From Haloarcula vallismortis ATCC 29715 (GTDB lineage: Archaea > Halobacteriota > Halobacteria > Halobacteriales > Haloarculaceae), in NCBI RefSeq assembly GCF_000337775.1, contig NZ_AOLQ01000012.1, forward strand, positions 62,001 to 126,000: 64,000 bases of DNA. Reading direction: 5' to 3'. Position 1 is the stretch's first letter. Every line of letters starts with the position of its first letter. Shown in pieces: positions 11,367 to 19,229 of the stretch. Position numbers and translations under genes: made by a program. The notes under the pieces were generated by a model, which searched no databases, was not told where the DNA came from, and was given only the letters and a program-made list of their open reading frames with translations.

Positions 11367-13973
11367 TCAGCGACGAAGGAAACCGAACAGCCGGTACTCC
11401 GAATCTGGTTTGTACCGGCGGAAGGCGAGGCTGTTTGCGAGCACCGACACGGACGAGGCGGCCATCGCGGCGGCGGCGAGCACCGGCTGGAGGAGTCCTA
11501 ACGAGGCTAGCGGAATCATCACGGTGTTGTATCCGAGCGCCCAGAACAGGTTCTGTTTTATTTTCTGGAGCGTGGCCTCGGAGACCCGGATGGCCTTCAC
11601 CACGTCGGCGGGGTCGTCCCGGAGCAACGTCACGTCCCCGGCCTCGATTGCCACGTCGGTCCCCGAGCCGATGGCACAGCCGACGCTCGCGGCCGCCAGC
11701 GCGGGCGCGTCGTTGACCCCGTCGCCGACCATCATCGCCTGGTCGCCGTTGCTCTGGAGTTCGTCGACGGCGTCGGCCTTGTCCTCGGGGAGTACGTCGG
11801 CCATCACGTTATCGGGGTCGATACCGACCTCCTCGGCGACAGCACGAGCCGTTCGCTCGTTGTCGCCGGTAATGAGCCAGACGCCCAGTCCACGCTCGCG
11901 CAGGCCACTAACGGCGGCCTTCGCAGACTCTTTGACCGTGTCGGCGTCGGCGACGATGCCGATGAGACGGTAATCCGGGTCGCTGCTCTCGTTGGCCCCG
12001 TCAGCCAGTGCGACTAGCATCGCCGTCTTGCCCTCACGTTCGAGCGCGTCCATCCGCTCCTCTGCCGGCTTGGTGTCGACGCCGGCCTCGGACAGCAGTT
12101 TCCGGTTGCCGACGAGGACGCGACCGTGGCGCGTCGTCGCTTTCACCCCCTGGCCAGGGACGTTCTCGAATTCGTCGGGGTCCTCCACTTCGATACCGCG
12201 TTCGCGTGCGCCCTCAACGATGGCCTCGGCCAGTGGGTGCTCGCTGGCGTGTTCGGCGCTTGCAGCAACTTCGAGGACGAACGCCTCGGTCCGTCCGGTC
12301 TCTGGCTTGAGCGTCCCGCCGTCCGCAGCGGGACCGATGACCTCGACATCTGTGAGTTCCATCTCGCCTTTCGTCAGGGTCCCCGTCTTGTCGAAGACGA
12401 CGGTGTCAACCTCGTGGACGCGTTCGAGCACGTCGCCGCCTTTGAACAGGACGCCGTTGCGCGCGCCAATAGCCGTCCCGACCATCGTCGCGGCGGGCGT
12501 CGCCAGTCCCAGCGCGCAGGGACAGGCGATGAGCACGGCGGAGGCGAACACGACGACGGCGAACTCTGAGATACCGACGGCCGCCGGGCCGCCCGCAGCC
12601 AGCCCCCACAGCGGGAGCGCGTCGACGACGGCGGCCAGCGTCTCCGGCGCGACCGCCCACAGCACCGCCCAGAGGACGGCGTTGGCGATGACTGCCGGGA
12701 CGAAGTACGCTGAGATGCGGTCGGCGACGTTCTGGATGTCGGGCTGTCGAGACTGAGCCTGCCGGACCCGTTCGGCGATCTGCTGGATAGCGGTCTCCGA
12801 GCCGACCTTCGTCGCTTCAATTTCGAGGACACCGTTCTGGTTCACCGTCGAGCCGATGACCTCGTCGCCCGCGCCTTTCTCGACCGGGACGGACTCGCCG
12901 GTCACCATCGATTCGTCGACGGCTGAATCGCCGTCCACGACGACGCCGTCTGTCGGAATCTTCTCGCCGGGTCGGACTTTCAGCCGGTCGCCGACCCCCA
13001 CCTCGTCGATGGGAACCTCTTCCTCGCTGCCGTCGTCACGGACGACCGTCGCCGTGTCGGCCTCCATCTCCAGCAGTTGCTGGATGGCGGCCCCGGCCTG
13101 GCTCTTCGAGCGGGCTTCGAGGTAGTTCCCGAGCGTGATGAACACGAGAATCAGCGCGGCCGTGTCGAAGTACAGCCCCGTGCTCGCGATGAGGCCGGCC
13201 AGCGCGGCCACCGAATAGACGTACGCCGTCGAGGAACCAAGCGCGATGAGCACGTCCATGTTGGCCCGGCCGTTGTTGACCAGCGCTTTGTAGGAGTTCT
13301 CGTAGAAGGGCTTGCCAAGCAAAATCTGGACCGGTGTCGCCAGCGCGAACGCGACCCAGCCCTGTGGCACTCCCAGAATCGTCTCGCCGACGAGGCCGAG
13401 CGAGAACAGGTGGTCCGCCATGAACAGCAGGAGCGGGGCAGAGAACACCGCTCCGAATAGCGTGAGCCGGAGCTGTCTGCGCGTTTCCTCGTTACGTGCG
13501 GCGGCGCGGCGGTCAGCGCCGGACTGTTCGCCGCCGGTGCCGTCACCGTCATTGCCCCGGACGGGCGTGTAGCCGGCGGCCTCAATAGCGTCGTCGAGGT
13601 CCGAACGCGACACGTCGGCCGGGTTGTACGTGACCTGTGCTTCGTCGGTAGCGTAGTTCACGCTGGCTTCGATGACGCCTGCGGTCCCTTCCAGCGCCTC
13701 CTCGTTAGTGGCCGCACAGTTCGCACACGACATGTCGGTGATGCCGATAGTCACTGTCTCAGTCGCTACGCCGTAGCCGGCGTCCTCGACGGCAGTGATA
13801 ATGTCGGCCAGTGATACCACAGCAGGGTCGTACTCGACACTCCCCTCGTCGGTGGCGTAATTCGCGTCGACGGACGTAACCCCGTCCAGCTCGCCCACCG
13901 ACTCTTCGATGGTGCCCGCGCAGTTGGCACAGCTCATCCCCGTCAGTTCGAGCCGAGTGGTCCGGTTGCTCAT
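11367..13973 (-). CDS. copA: Copper-translocating P1B-type ATPase
   Basis: An 868-residue membrane pump. Two N-terminal heavy-metal-binding domains carry CxxC at residues 15/18 and 83/86 (GMSCANC and DMSCANC). An acidic linker and eight predicted membrane helices follow. Catalytic marks are TGES (actuator domain), the transmembrane CPC ([13 protein letters not shown]), the phosphorylation site DKTGTLTKG, the SEHPLAEAI motif and the hinge [15 protein letters not shown] with these features indicates export of Cu(I) (or Ag(I)) from the cytoplasm. The gene for an Lrp-type TRASH regulator lies just upstream on the same strand, a context known for archaeal copper control. Confidence 0.95.
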
Positions 13974-14101: not shown

Positions 14102-14692
14102 TCAGGCCCCGTCTTTCAGCGACTCGTACTGGTCGACGAACCGCTCGGCACAGGAGCCACAGCAGAAGTAGTACCGCTCACCGTCGAGCGTGCGCTGTTC
14201 GCCTTCCTCGTCGACGCTATTGCCACACTCCGCACAGTCAGGTGCGAACTCCGCTTCCCCCAACCCAGCGGTCCACTCGCTGTCCGCGATCATTTGGACC
14301 TCGTAACGGTCCACATCCCCGAGGTCGACGTGTTCGGCGAGGAGTTCGCTGGCATCGGACTGGGAGACGTTCGCTACCAGTACTACTCGGCCGCCGGCGG
14401 TTCGATAGACCCGCTCGACGGCATCTGCGTCGCTGACCTCTGCAGCGATGTCGGCGGCTTGACCCGGCTTCGCACTGACATCGATCAGGACTGGCACGCC
14501 GGCCTGTAGCAGTGAGCGGTCGACATCGACGGTAAACCCCTGTATCAGTCCCATCTCGACAAGCCTGTCGACGCGGTCGGAGACTGCAGGGGCCGAGAGA
14601 TCCACTCGCTCCGCGATGTCGCTGTAGGGCCGCCTGGCGTCTTCGAGTAGCAGTCTGAGGATTTCGTGGTCTGTGTCGTCGAGTCCGGGCAT
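14102..14692 (-). CDS. Lrp/AsnC-family regulator with C-terminal TRASH metal-binding domain (CopR-like)
   Basis: The 196-residue protein has an N-terminal Lrp/AsnC helix-turn-helix (DDTDHEILRLLLEDARRPY, then LSAPAVSDRVDRLVEMGLI). A ligand-like ferredoxin-fold region follows, then a C-terminal TRASH domain with Cys153, Cys156, Cys177, Cys178 and Cys181 (CAECGNS and FCCGSCAERF). Proteins of this build regulate copper genes in archaea (CopR in Sulfolobus; a homologue in Halobacterium) and typically sit beside copA, as here. It probably senses Cu(I) through the Cys cluster and activates the copA gene downstream. A TATA-like CATAAAC lies about 30 bases upstream of its start. Confidence 0.9.
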   Translation of the reverse strand: MPGLDDTDHEILRLLLEDARRPYSDIAERVDLSAPAVSDRVDRLVEMGLIQGFTVDVDRSLLQAGVPVLIDVSAKPGQAADIAAEVSDADAVERVYRTAGGRVVLVANVSQSDASELLAEHVDLGDVDRYEVQMIADSEWTAGLGEAEFAPDCAECGNSVDEEGEQRTLDGERYYFCCGSCAERFVDQYESLKDGA

Positions 14693-14778: not shown

Positions 14779-14794
14779 ATTAGACTAGTCTAAT
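14779..14794. promoter_or_regulatory. Perfect 16-bp palindrome ATTAGACTAGTCTAAT, probable DtxR-family operator
   Basis: It lies upstream of the metal ABC importer operon and shares TTAGA-N4-TCTAA with the site in front of the DtxR-family gene (19156-19169). It is centred about 58 bases before the chosen ATG at 14845 and about 30 bases before a TATA-like TTATATTC at 14816-14823. A further TTAGA half-site follows at 14802-14806. If the upstream ATG at 14806 is used instead, the palindrome falls over the expected TATA region. Confidence 0.7.
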
Positions 14795-14844
14795 TCTATT
14801 ATTAGATGGAAACTGTTATATTCTTCTCCGATAGCAAGCCACAC

Positions 14845-15930
14845 ATGGCAAGTAACCAACCCTGTGACGATCGGCCGTATGGCGTTACCCGCAGGCAAGC
14901 ACTCTGTGCCGGAGCGGGAGCCTTTGCGGCCAGCTTCGCCGGCTGTCTGACCGGCGGCGGGAGAGAAGCGGCATCGACTAGCAGCGGCGGGACGGACGGC
15001 GCGGACGGGCCGGTCGCAGTCGCCTCGTTCTTCAGTTTCTACGACTTCGCCCGCAAGGTCGCACGCGGGACGTCGATAACGGTCAAGAACCTCATCCCAA
15101 CCGGACTGCACGGCCACGGCTGGGAACCAGACGCCGGAATCACGCGAGATATCATCGACGCGGACGCGTTCATCCACGTCGGCCCGGACTTCCAGCCCTG
15201 GGCCGACCGCGCGATTCAGACGCTCAAAGACGACAACGTCGATACCGAACTCATCAACGTCCGCGAGGGCATCGAACTCGAATCGCTCGCGGCGAGCCTC
15301 GACCGCGACGAAGAGGGCGTCGGACAGGACAGGGCCAGCGACCCGCATTTCTGGCTTGACCCCAAGCGCGCGAAACAGTCGGTCGACAACATCACAGAGG
15401 GGCTGGTCGCGCTCGCACCCGACGCCGAAGACACGCTCCGAGACAACGCCGAGGCGTACAACTCGGACGTTCTCGACCGCATCGACGCGGACTACGCCGA
15501 TATTTTCGACCGGGCCGACAGGAACGTGGTCCAGCTCGCGGCGCACAACGCATTCCAGTACATCGGAACGCGCTACGGCGTTGAGATGCGTCCGCTCGTG
15601 GTTAACCTCGCTGCCAGCGGGGACGTGAAGCCCTCTGACATCACTGAGGCGAAAGCGGTCATCGATGACAACGATATCCGGTACATCGGAGCCGGTGTCT
15701 TCGAGACGCGCAAGCCCGCCAAGCAGCTACTCGCCGAAACATCGGTCGAAGCCTACTATCCGGTGACGCCGTATGCTGGCGTCCGCGAGGAGTGGGTGGA
15801 AAACAGCTGGGGGTACGAGGAAATCGCCTACCGTGTGAATATGCCGACGTTCGAGGTCGTTCTGGGCAACACAGCACCTGAAGACGCGGGCCCCGACGGC
15901 TGGAGCGAGGACTGGCGGAATTTTGAATGA
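14845..15930 (+). CDS. Metal ABC transporter substrate-binding lipoprotein (probably Mn/Zn)
   Basis: A 361-residue cluster A-I binding protein. It begins with a Tat signal (VTRRQALCAGAGAFAAS) and lipobox (FAGC). The mature part has the metal-site elements of the ZnuA/MntA/PsaA family: His in GLHGHGWEPD, HVGPDFQPW, His in DPHFWLDPKRA, and His in AAHNAFQYIGTRYG. It captures the divalent metal outside the cell for the ATPase and permease encoded next. ATG 14845 is chosen because the signal peptide follows it closely and a TATA-like element lies 25 bases upstream; an in-frame ATG at 14806 is possible. There is no His-rich loop like that of zinc-specific ZnuA, which leans toward Mn. Confidence 0.88.
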   Translation: MASNQPCDDRPYGVTRRQALCAGAGAFAASFAGCLTGGGREAASTSSGGTDGADGPVAVASFFSFYDFARKVARGTSITVKNLIPTGLHGHGWEPDAGITRDIIDADAFIHVGPDFQPWADRAIQTLKDDNVDTELINVREGIELESLAASLDRDEEGVGQDRASDPHFWLDPKRAKQSVDNITEGLVALAPDAEDTLRDNAEAYNSDVLDRIDADYADIFDRADRNVVQLAAHNAFQYIGTRYGVEMRPLVVNLAASGDVKPSDITEAKAVIDDNDIRYIGAGVFETRKPAKQLLAETSVEAYYPVTPYAGVREEWVENSWGYEEIAYRVNMPTFEVVLGNTAPEDAGPDGWSEDWRNFE

Positions 15931-16736
15931 AACCGACAATGCGCTCACACCACCGAGACGATACCGACGAAGCGACGACCGAATCGAACGAAAGCAGGCC
16001 ATCAGTCGTCGACCTCACAGACGTGTCGTTCGGGTACACGTCTACGCCTGTCGTTGAAGACATCACTGTCAGCATCGACGCCGGAGAGTACGTCGCCGTT
16101 GTCGGCCCCAACGGGTCCGGCAAGTCAACGCTCATGCAGTTGTTGCTCGGCCTGCTGGAGCCTGATAGCGGGACTGCAAAGCTGTTCGGCGTCGACGCGA
16201 CGGCGTTCGACGACGGAGCCAGAGTCGGCTACGTCGCACAGCGCGCCGGGACGAGTCGGGAGATGCCCATTACGGTCCGCGAAGTGGTGAAGATGGGCCG
16301 GTTTCCACACGTCGGGTTCGGGCGTCTTTCCGCAGCCGACTGGCGTATCGTCGACAGGGCTATCGACACAGTCGGGATGTCGGCCTTTGCCGACCGGCGA
16401 ATCACCCAACTCTCTGGCGGGCAGCGCCAGCGTGCGTTTATCGCCCGGGCACTCGCGGGTGAGGCTGACCTGCTCGTGCTGGACGAACCGACCGTCGGCG
16501 TGGACACCGAATCGGTCGACGCCTTCTACGGACTGCTCGAATCGCTCCACGTCGACGGCATCACCGTCCTGCTTATCGAACACGATCTGCAGGCCGTCAT
16601 CGAACACGCAGAGCGCGTCATCTGTCTGAACCAGGAGATCTACTTTGACGGGCCATCAGCGGAATTCACGGACAGTGCGGCACTAGCCAGAGCGTTCGGG
16701 ACGGGTACGCGGTTGCTGACCGGAGGCAACGGATGA
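15927..16736 (+). CDS. Metal ABC transporter ATP-binding protein
   Basis: A 269-residue ATPase with Walker A GPNGSGKSTLMQLL, the Q-loop at YVAQRAG, signature LSGGQRQRAFIARAL, Walker B LLVLDEPTVGVD and switch His in LIEHDLQAVI. It powers uptake through the ABC-3 type permease next in the operon. It overlaps the binding-protein gene by 4 bases (ATGA) and the permease gene by 4 bases, so the three are co-translated. About 25 acidic, Ser/Thr-rich residues precede the ATPase core; an inner start is possible but the ATGA overlap supports this one. Confidence 0.92.
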   Translation: MKPTMRSHHRDDTDEATTESNESRPSVVDLTDVSFGYTSTPVVEDITVSIDAGEYVAVVGPNGSGKSTLMQLLLGLLEPDSGTAKLFGVDATAFDDGARVGYVAQRAGTSREMPITVREVVKMGRFPHVGFGRLSAADWRIVDRAIDTVGMSAFADRRITQLSGGQRQRAFIARALAGEADLLVLDEPTVGVDTESVDAFYGLLESLHVDGITVLLIEHDLQAVIEHAERVICLNQEIYFDGPSAEFTDSAALARAFGTGTRLLTGGNG

Positions 16737-17704
16737 CGCTCGCGTTTGCCGGCGGCGTGTATGAGGCGTTCGTTCCGATCCTCGAAGTGTGGTACTGGCT
16801 CCTGACACTGCTTTACCACCTGACCGGACTGGAGCTTATCAACCCCGAGTACACGTTCATGTATCGGGCGATACTGGTCGGGCTGTGTGTCGGCGTCATC
16901 GCGCCGCTAATCGGGACCTTTCTCGTCCACCGTCAGCTCGCGCTCATCGGGGATGCACTCGCCCACACGGCCTTCGCCGGCGTCGCCGTCGGGCTGTTTC
17001 TCAACGCCGTTCTCGAACTGAGCGTTTCGCCGTATCTCACCGCTGTCGTCGTGGCCGTTATCGCGGCGTTGCTCATCGAACTCATCTCCGAGGCGACAGA
17101 CGCCTACAACGACGTGTCGATGGCGATTGTCCTCTCGACGGGGTTCGCCCTAGGGACGGTCCTCATCAGCCTCAACGCCGGCGGGTTGGCCGTCGGTATC
17201 AATCAGTACCTCTTCGGTAACCTCTCGACGGTGTCCGCCGAGAACGCGGTCATCATGCTCGGGCTGTTCAGCATCATCGTCGCGACGGTCGCGCTGACCC
17301 GCAACCAGTTGCTGTACGTCACGTTCGACGAGACCGCCGCCGCCGTCTCTGGACTCCCGGTCGCCTGGTACAACCGGATTATGGTGATGCTGACGGCGCT
17401 CGTCGTCGTCGGTGCGATGCAAATAATGGGCGTCATCCTCGTCGCGGCCATGCTGGTCGTCCCGGTCGCCGGCGCGACACAGGTGTCCCGAAGCTTCTCT
17501 GAATCACTGCTGGTCTCGATTGTGTTGGCTGAACTCGCTGTTTTGCTCGGTATCGGTATCTCGTACTACGTCGGTGCGACAGCCGGCGGCGTCATCGTTC
17601 TCGTCGCAGTGGGGATTTACGCCCTCTCGGTCCTTGCCGGGAACGTCCGGCAGACCGGCGCTCCGGATGAAACGCGAGAACTCGAAAGCATCAGTCAGGA
17701 CTGA
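16733..17704 (+). CDS. Metal ABC transporter permease (ABC-3 family)
   Basis: A 323-residue membrane protein with about eight hydrophobic segments. It has the ABC-3 landmarks HRQLALIGDALAHTAFAGVAVG (the metal-path segment of ZnuB/MntB-type permeases) and ALVVVGAMQIMGVILVAAMLVVP. It forms the channel for Mn or Zn uptake with the two proteins encoded before it. It is the last gene of the importer operon and converges on the GDT1-type gene, whose stop lies 46 bases further on. Confidence 0.92.
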   Translation: MTLAFAGGVYEAFVPILEVWYWLLTLLYHLTGLELINPEYTFMYRAILVGLCVGVIAPLIGTFLVHRQLALIGDALAHTAFAGVAVGLFLNAVLELSVSPYLTAVVVAVIAALLIELISEATDAYNDVSMAIVLSTGFALGTVLISLNAGGLAVGINQYLFGNLSTVSAENAVIMLGLFSIIVATVALTRNQLLYVTFDETAAAVSGLPVAWYNRIMVMLTALVVVGAMQIMGVILVAAMLVVPVAGATQVSRSFSESLLVSIVLAELAVLLGIGISYYVGATAGGVIVLVAVGIYALSVLAGNVRQTGAPDETRELESISQD

Positions 17705-17750
17705 GAGCACCCACTAGTAGGGCCATATCCAAGTGACAACACTGCCCGCC

Positions 17751-18458
17751 TCAGACGCCCATCTGCGCCGCGATGGACGAGACCATGGTTTCCCACAGCG
17801 AGAACCCCATCGTCACGCTCAGAGCGAAATCCGCGGCGAAAAACAGGAACAGTCCTGCGCCGACGAAGTGCGCTTTCCGCAGGTCGAAACGGTGGGTGAA
17901 CCGGTGGAAAAACAGTGCGTTGACGAGGCTCACCGGAATGATGGCGAGCATCTCCCCAGTCCAGATAGCGCTGGCGTGGGCGCTGTACTGAGCGGCGAGC
18001 GTGATCGTAATGAGCTGGGTCTTATCGCCGAACTCACCGAAGGCCATCATCGCGAAGATGGGCAGGAAGCCGCCGAGCTTGTTCGGAACCTGCCGGTCGA
18101 CGACGGGGACACGCACGTCCAACTGGCCCCCATCGGTGGTGAAGCCGGATGCAGGTTCCTGTTGCTCTGAATCGGCCGCCGGGGCGCTACGGAGCAGCAG
18201 TATCGCGAACAGCAGGAACATCCCGGCGGTGAGGCTTTCGAGAACGATGTCAGGCAGTGCCGACGTAATCGCTGAGCCGAACCAGATCTCAAGCGCCGTC
18301 CAGCCGGCGAAGGCCGTCCCCGCGGCGCTGACGACGAGGAACGGATTGAACCGCGTCGACAGGCCAGCAATGATGAACTGGACTTTCTCGCCGGGGAGGA
18401 CCGCAAGCTGCGCACCGGCTGCTATCGCGACCACTGTCAGCCACGTCGCGTCGCTCAC
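17751..18458 (-). CDS. GDT1/TMEM165 (UPF0016) family membrane protein, probable Mn2+ exporter
   Basis: A 235-residue membrane protein with six hydrophobic segments in two repeats of three. The second repeat has the family motif ExGD(K/R)(S/T) intact (FGEFGDKTQLITITLAAQ). In the first repeat the matching place reads LPGEKVQF, so the acidic pair is altered. A hydrophilic loop of about 40 residues (ADSEQQEP...) separates the halves. Relatives export Mn2+ (MneA in Vibrio, Mnx/SynPAM71 in cyanobacteria) or exchange Ca/Mn. Its start overlaps the end of the DtxR-family gene by 4 bases, so regulator and exporter share a transcript facing the importer operon. Confidence 0.85.
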   Translation of the reverse strand: MSDATWLTVVAIAAGAQLAVLPGEKVQFIIAGLSTRFNPFLVVSAAGTAFAGWTALEIWFGSAITSALPDIVLESLTAGMFLLFAILLLRSAPAADSEQQEPASGFTTDGGQLDVRVPVVDRQVPNKLGGFLPIFAMMAFGEFGDKTQLITITLAAQYSAHASAIWTGEMLAIIPVSLVNALFFHRFTHRFDLRKAHFVGAGLFLFFAADFALSVTMGFSLWETMVSSIAAQMGV

Positions 18459-19147
18459 GCCTGGCTCACTCCGTCTTCGCCCTGCGTGTCCGGTGCGCGG
18501 ACCTGAATCGCGTCGGCGATATGGTCCGGGAGCGACACGGACGACCCACTCTCTAGCTGGACCGTCACCATCCCGATGGGCGCGACTTCCTCGACGGTCA
18601 ACACGGTTCCCGGTGTGATACCGGCATCGGAGAGATACGTGAGTTCGTCGGGGTCGCGGTCACGGACCCGTGCGACTTCGAGTTGTCCCCCTTCGCTGTG
18701 CTCTGACAGCGCCGTCGCGGACTCGTCGTCGATGGGGTCGAGCGAGTCGCTGGGAATCGGGTCCCCGTGGGGGTCGAACTCCGGCTCGTCGAGAACAGCC
18801 GCGACCCGGGACTCGAACTCCTCGCTGATGTGGTGTTCGAGTACCTCCGCTTCCTCGTGGACCTCGGCCCAGTCGTAGCCCAGTTGCTCGGTGAGAAACG
18901 TCTCAAGCAAGCGGTGGTGGCGGATGATTTCTAGGGCTACCGTCTCGCCTTCCGGTGTCGTCCGCACGCCCTTGTACTTCTCGCGTTCGACCAGCCCGCG
19001 GTCGGCCAGCTTCTCGACCATACTGGTGACCGTCGGTGCGGTAACGTCCAGCATCTCGGCGATAGTAGACGGAGCAATCGGCGGGTCGCCGTCCCGCTCG
19101 AGGCGATAGATGGCCTTCAGATAATCCTCCATCTTGGCACTCAGCAT
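18455..19147 (-). CDS. sirR: DtxR/MntR/SirR-family metal-dependent transcriptional regulator
   Basis: A 230-residue protein with an N-terminal winged helix (MEDYLKAIYRLERDGDPPI, then VTAPTVTSMVEKLADRGLV). A dimerisation/metal domain follows, rich in the expected ligands (IIRHHRLLETFL, HEEAEVLEHHISEEFE), and then a C-terminal FeoA/SH3-like domain (about 150-215). DtxR-family proteins bind Mn2+ or Fe2+ and control uptake and export genes; SirR does so in Halobacterium. Met6 (19132) is an alternative start. A TTAGA-N4-TCTAA site 9 bases upstream of the ATG suggests autoregulation, and a perfect version precedes the importer operon. Confidence 0.92.
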   Translation of the reverse strand: MLSAKMEDYLKAIYRLERDGDPPIAPSTIAEMLDVTAPTVTSMVEKLADRGLVEREKYKGVRTTPEGETVALEIIRHHRLLETFLTEQLGYDWAEVHEEAEVLEHHISEEFESRVAAVLDEPEFDPHGDPIPSDSLDPIDDESATALSEHSEGGQLEVARVRDRDPDELTYLSDAGITPGTVLTVEEVAPIGMVTVQLESGSSVSLPDHIADAIQVRAPDTQGEDGVSQA

Positions 19148-19155
19148 ACACCAAA

Positions 19156-19169
19156 TTAGACGAATCTAA
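19156..19169. promoter_or_regulatory. TTAGA-N4-TCTAA dyad at the DtxR-family gene, probable operator
   Basis: TTAGACGAATCTAA lies between a weak TATA-like element (minus strand CTTTTGG, about 19173-19179) and the ATG at 19147, so a bound protein would cover the transcription start. It matches the importer-side palindrome in both 5-bp arms and in spacing. Confidence 0.65.
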
Positions 19170-19229
19170 CCCAAAAGATTGGCGGTTCCAACAAATTCGC
19201 GCGTACCGGACACGTCCGGACGATTGCTG

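Follow-up and report, generated by a model that had tools for sequence, protein, structure and literature searches.

In the 64,000-nt window of Haloarcula vallismortis ATCC 29715 analysed here (contig NZ_AOLQ01000012.1, positions 62,001 to 126,000), a metal importer operon converges on an operon for a DtxR-family regulator, SirR, and a GDT1 membrane transporter, and a copy of the dyad TTAGA-N4-TCTAA precedes each of them. The locus raises the question of whether one regulator acts at both promoters and, if so, whether it moves the two units in the same or in opposite directions. There is good reason to regard the block as a metal-responsive regulon of the haloarchaeal, MntR-type SirR, with manganese (Mn)-dependent repression of both units. 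Most likely, Mn-loaded SirR represses the importer and sirR-GDT1 operons alike and does not drive them in opposite directions. For this species, the direction of control is predicted from expression data obtained by others in Halobacterium.

Two exact sites and a composite importer operator

A genome-wide pattern scan found exact TTAGA-N4-TCTAA twice in the 3.92-Mb genome, at the two sites named in the original prediction (Table 1), and no match to the reversed control pattern in the whole genome. With one mismatch allowed, 0.20 matches are expected per window, and two matches were obtained in none of 100 shuffles; two exact matches in the window are well above chance. The predicted difference in geometry was likewise found, the sirR site lying downstream of the TATA box and ahead of the start point, and the importer dyad lying upstream, with a half-site further on that abuts the transcription factor B recognition element (BRE) and TATA box.

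The scan of relatives, set beforehand as the test that could refute the prediction, showed that TTAGA-N4-TCTAA is kept beside orthologues of both units. Across 194 haloarchaeal genomes the exact site gave 330 matches, as compared with 117 for a control pattern. In a set of 80 sirR loci selected only by the regulator, the site is exact in 42 promoters and has one mismatch in another 15 (together 57/80); it always ends 7–15 nt before the ATG and directly follows a TATA-like element. The exact site is present in 51 of 66 non-redundant importer promoters, against 0.01 in shuffles, and ends 49–56 nt before the ATG in 42 promoters and 20–22 nt before it in six. The latter (L133, L141, L142, L143, L144 and L113) form a second class, in which the TATA box is upstream of the dyad, and represent the same regulon with a moved operator.

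That sirR and the ycdH/zurA/zurM-type importer are preceded by the same dyad supports the predicted shared operator and single regulator. Outside Haloarcula, the importer and sirR are often apart or on plasmids. Since the site is kept at both units even though they are often not neighbours, each is a member of the regulon and not merely adjacent to another member. In Haloarcula all parts lie convergently within 4.4 kb, and the side-by-side layout is mostly limited to this genus.

The importer promoters include a further element. A second half-site at +22 from the dyad start reads TTAGA in 21 of 43 promoters and TTHGA (TTAGA, TTTGA or TTCGA) in 31 of 43, and no other single offset has a half-site in more than three; the consensus is ATTAGActaGTCTAAt-N7-TTaGAt-gaaActAtTATAT. 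Of 391 haloarchaeal genomes, 105 contain the 27-bp composite pattern, whereas the reversed control turned up once; in this genome the composite operator occurs once, before the importer. Beyond the first whole-genome promoter set there are 60 further composite sites, 57 in genomes that played no part in defining the pattern and three in genomes already seen; 54 of the 60 precede an importer binding protein, and three more seem, by eye, to precede a protein with 10 transmembrane segments (10-TM) like the Pfam ArsP_2 one described below. The ycdH promoter on plasmid pNRC200 of H. salinarum carries TTTGATACATCTAA and TTAGA at +22.

The gene contents and convergent layout given in the original prediction were confirmed. 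The cluster 9 (ZnuA/TroA) importer set is complete in one operon, with PF01297, PF00005 and PF00950 all above cut-offs, and the GDT1 gene, which starts with GTG, shares 4 bp with the end of sirR, including its stop codon. With the importer start at ATG 14845, the motif ends 51 nt upstream, in line with the 42 of 51 promoters of the major class. The alternative start at ATG 14806 was rejected: several close relatives lack it, and it falls inside the second half-site.

Table 1. Genes and predicted promoter elements of the convergent block (coordinates in the window).
Feature	Position	Strand	Remarks
ABC (ATP-binding cassette) importer metal-binding lipoprotein, ZnuA/TroA family	14845..15930	+	His H91, H168, H234; lipobox Cys34; start ATG 14845
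Importer ABC ATPase	15927..16736	+	PF00005
Importer ABC-3 family permease	16733..17704	+	PF00950; importer unit ends at 17704
GDT1 (UPF0016) membrane transporter	17751..18458	-	second motif EFGDKT canonical, first replaced by PGEKVQ; sirR-GDT1 unit ends at 17751
SirR/MntR-type DtxR-family regulator with FeoA domain	18455..19147	-	DtxR family by profile and solved-structure relatives
Importer SirR-type operator (predicted), TTAGACTAGTCTAA	14780..14793	none	core of perfect palindrome 14779-14794
Second half-site TTAGA	14802..14806	+	exactly 22 bp past dyad start
BRE-like GGAAAC, importer promoter	14808..14813	+	GAAAC before TATA kept in importer promoter consensus
TATA-like box GTTATATTC, importer	14815..14823	+	about -30 to -22 of ATG 14845; consensus actAtTATAT
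sirR-GDT1 operon SirR-type operator (predicted)	19156..19169	none	TTAGATTCGTCTAA on the - strand; -22 to -9 of ATG
TATA-like ATCTTTTGGG	19170..19179	-	directly upstream of sirR operator; sirR promoter consensus acTTtTg right before dyad

On its other side the importer adjoins genes for a copper-type P-ATPase with two HMA domains (11367-13973, minus strand) and for an Lrp/AsnC regulator with a TRASH domain (14102-14692, minus strand). This pair resembles the published Halobacterium VNG1179C/yvgX copper pair.

The regulator and its metal

The regulator belongs to the DtxR family, with PF01325, PF02742 and FeoA well above cut-offs, and its relatives of solved structure are DtxR, IdeR, ScaR and SloR. 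In the alignment of the 80 loci, ligand positions D8, H77, E104 and H105 are invariant; D8 occurs in 80/80 and Asp or Glu at position 101 in 80/80, and the Met and Cys of iron-type DtxR never occur. The positions were assigned by reference to the MntR and DtxR structures (Met10 and Cys102 in iron-type DtxR). The best NCBIfam model, NF047407, gave 203 bits; because the cut-off of 350 for the MntR equivalog was not reached, the protein was filed by orthology to Halobacterium SirR. The Halobacterium-like genome G018 encodes one protein 61% alike to the regulator, with GDT1 26 bp further on; its sirR-GDT1 promoter carries TTAGATGCATCTAA, and before its importer stands a promoter with the very sequence of the one on H. 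salinarum pNRC200. As judged by these comparisons, the regulator is orthologous to Halobacterium SirR, and its ligands are of the MntR type. The Halobacterium sirR gene is VNG0536G, whose number adjoins that of VNG0535C, a membrane protein gene that may be the GDT1 gene.

The prediction of Mn as the likely metal agrees with the MntR-type ligands and with the published Mn-dependent repression by Halobacterium SirR, and Mn would be the best single guess, drawn from the Halobacterium data. A system handling zinc, or zinc and Mn, and not chiefly Mn, is rather unlikely. The importer binding protein has three invariant His residues, the third ligand being His, and lacks an acidic fourth ligand where AdcA and YcdH have one; therefore, the imported metal could be zinc or several metals. 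The zinc carriers AdcA and YcdH are among the nearest solved binding proteins, but a His-rich loop is absent here. Azt zinc models give the top scores for the ATPase and the permease, though below cut-off, whereas the ligands of the regulator are MntR-like, the derepression in Halobacterium was observed with Mn, and those members of the GDT1 family that have been studied move Mn.

Direction of control and the place of GDT1

Halobacterium cells that lack sirR have raised mRNA levels of zurA, zurM and ycdH when Mn is present (PMC1779511; also PMC3600143, PMC5287237), and sirR has been described as a Mn-dependent autorepressor (PMC3600143). Furthermore, its mRNA correlates positively, at 0.77, with the importer bicluster (PMC1502140), to which the membrane protein VNG0535C belongs (PMC1779511). 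Given the importer derepression, the autorepression and the correlation, both units most likely move together, and the earlier proposal of a regulator that represses one unit while affecting the second in another way is not supported. The upstream position of the importer site could suggest activation; repression is preferred because the Halobacterium importer, with the same promoter architecture, is derepressed in the sirR deletion.

Under plentiful Mn, Mn-loaded SirR dimers would bind TTAGA-N4-TCTAA. At the sirR-GDT1 promoter, a dimer sitting past the TATA box but before the start point would block RNA polymerase, so that SirR would repress its own gene together with GDT1. At the importer, binding at the half-site 22 bp (about two helical turns) downstream would assist the dimer that occupies the upstream dyad, and the bound SirR would cover the BRE/TATA region; as the half-site abuts both elements, its occupancy should exclude TFB and TBP from the promoter. 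Both units would be shut off jointly at high Mn and derepressed jointly at low Mn. For H. vallismortis we infer direct binding of SirR to the sites, a co-operative second dimer, repression of GDT1, and Mn as the metal.

GDT1 is a likely SirR target in its own right, as predicted from its promoters. Of 20 GDT1 genes picked by similarity alone, regardless of the motif, 12 follow sirR; among the eight that stand alone, three have an exact site and three a one-mismatch site within 150 nt upstream, and in five stand-alone examples the site directly follows a TATA-like sequence. It is this retention of the site away from sirR that makes GDT1 itself a likely target.

These promoters also bear on the possibility of opposite regulation, in which SirR would repress the importer but activate or spare sirR-GDT1, and GDT1 would export excess Mn. 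The unlike geometry of the two promoters and the Mn-induced export of Mn by Vibrio GDT1 relatives (PMC7380456) are in keeping with such a scheme. However, at sirR and at the stand-alone GDT1 genes the site is just downstream of the TATA box, in a blocking position, and sirR is reported to be a Mn-dependent autorepressor positively correlated with the importer, which makes opposite regulation improbable.

The protein itself (PF01169, 91.6 bits) has one copy of the E-x-G-D-[KR]-[ST] motif of the GDT1/UPF0016 family, EFGDKT at residues 142-147. This second motif, E-x-G-D-K-T, is invariant in 55 haloarchaeal homologues, and in 55/55 the first motif is replaced by PGEKVQ (L-P-G-E-K-V-Q in P0002). 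In Vibrio MneA, mutants showed that Glu and Asp of the first motif are both needed (PMC7380456); the present GDT1 does not have this pair, which marks an MneA-type Mn exporter. Thus, Mn export by haloarchaeal GDT1 is putative, and co-repression with the importer argues against simple Mn-induced efflux. The term exporter in the original prediction was a family inference only, from which the altered first motif and the importer co-repression lead away.

Some observations weigh against co-repression by Mn-loaded SirR. Repression of a putative exporter in high Mn is unexpected for detoxification, and the three-His ligand set of the binding protein is commoner in zinc carriers. In addition, no recognisable site was found at 22 of the 80 SirR-like loci, mostly from Halovenus, Halapricum, Halococcus and metagenome-assembled genomes. 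The recognition helix at these loci is alike to that of the others, and a change in this helix was rejected as the cause of site loss, no clear difference having been found.

Binding of the motif by another regulator, either a DtxR paralogue such as Idr or TroR or an unrelated factor, is very improbable: although the genome encodes at least two further DtxR-like proteins (40% and 34% alike), sirR orthologues themselves carry the site in their promoters across the class, the other paralogues are without an exact site, as the genome has only two, and in Halobacterium the loss of sirR derepresses the importer.

Further sites, a candidate RNA and related systems

SirR-type sites also precede 10-TM protein genes (L173:2462, L174:2453, L178:2503, L222 and L274), being composite in L178, L222 and L274; the L173 protein matches Pfam ArsP_2 (PF11449), a putative heavy-metal exporter. 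The operator shared with the importer suggests that these proteins act under Mn scarcity or, more broadly, in the transport of Mn. In Natrialbaceae (L064:8767, L065:8759, L074:8767 and L078:8767), a ZIP-like transporter gene with its own SirR-type site follows sirR, its match to Pfam Zip being below cut-off. A SirR-type site is also located before a two-domain multicopper oxidase at L026:8763 and L176:2553, for which a link to Mn oxidation is conceivable.

In nine of 32 Haloarcula genomes, the present one excluded, a further composite operator precedes about 180 nt of conserved sequence (L162:2464-2700, i.e. G082:C6:107063 onward; also L160, L161 and L163-L167); in one of the nine, an insertion parts the operator from the remaining region. 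A DNA search found no such locus in this genome. A one-mismatch site, TTAGGCCAGTCTAA at G000:C42:167587, was on sequence grounds the sole candidate here for a counterpart of the relatives' third site, and was rejected, as it stands before a different gene. The conserved region of the nine genomes has a strong 5' hairpin, GCGTTCCG...CGGAACGC. A GTG- or ATG-started frame exists in some of the loci; the distribution of variable sites by codon position (17/10/13), with no third-position bias, and the presence of single-base indels speak against a protein. No match was found in Rfam, covariation is almost absent, and the fold z score is only -2.2. The region is probably non-coding and is a candidate metal-regulated RNA, whose transcription is putative. 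A tentative extension would be that some Haloarcula use SirR to control a structured non-coding RNA as well, and that GDT1, with its altered first motif, and the 10-TM ArsP_2 protein, both located behind the same operators, serve Mn acquisition or Mn-poor conditions, not efflux.

The closest known system is that of H. salinarum SirR and ycdH-zurA-zurM, which has an orthologous regulator (61%) in an operon with GDT1, an orthologous importer and the same operator architecture. Unlike the Haloarcula parts, all within 4.4 kb, its importer is on plasmid pNRC200, and the dyad has one mismatch (TTTGA). Bacterial MntR, SloR and TroR (e.g. Treponema denticola TroR, PMC2628430) are similar in that they pair a DtxR-family Mn regulator with an ABC importer of the TroA type and use a dyad operator, whereas the present system has an archaeal TATA/BRE promoter, GDT1 in the operon of the regulator and a composite operator in a 22-bp register. 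The yybP-ykoY riboswitch of bacterial GDT1/MneA likewise places a GDT1-family gene under Mn control, but it is a bacterial RNA switch, with mneA being Mn-induced in Vibrio, and here a DNA-binding repressor is predicted.

Archaeal DtxR regulons were reconstructed by Leyn and Rodionov in 2015 (J Bacteriol 197:451), who reportedly placed palindromic sites for DtxR upstream of genes for metal transport and its regulation. A review describes four halobacterial UPF0016 genes as Mn-regulated, citing Leyn and Rodionov 2015 and one other paper, and the same review credits the control to ManS/ManR. Hence this kind of control is already known (SirR; archaeal DtxR regulons), and the TTAGA-N4-TCTAA motif itself may already be published. 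The details that seem to be new are the 22-bp architecture, the first-motif variant of GDT1, and the probable non-coding RNA behind a composite operator in nine other Haloarcula genomes.

If the extension to that RNA is true, it would be an archaeal metal-responsive small regulatory RNA, with a logic comparable to that of RyhB. The locus further poses a puzzle: in haloarchaea, GDT1 seems to be repressed along with a Mn-type importer, although Mn export is what its family is known for. In addition, the archaeal operator described here is well delimited and takes fixed positions at promoters of two types, so that rules of positional repression are testable with one regulator.

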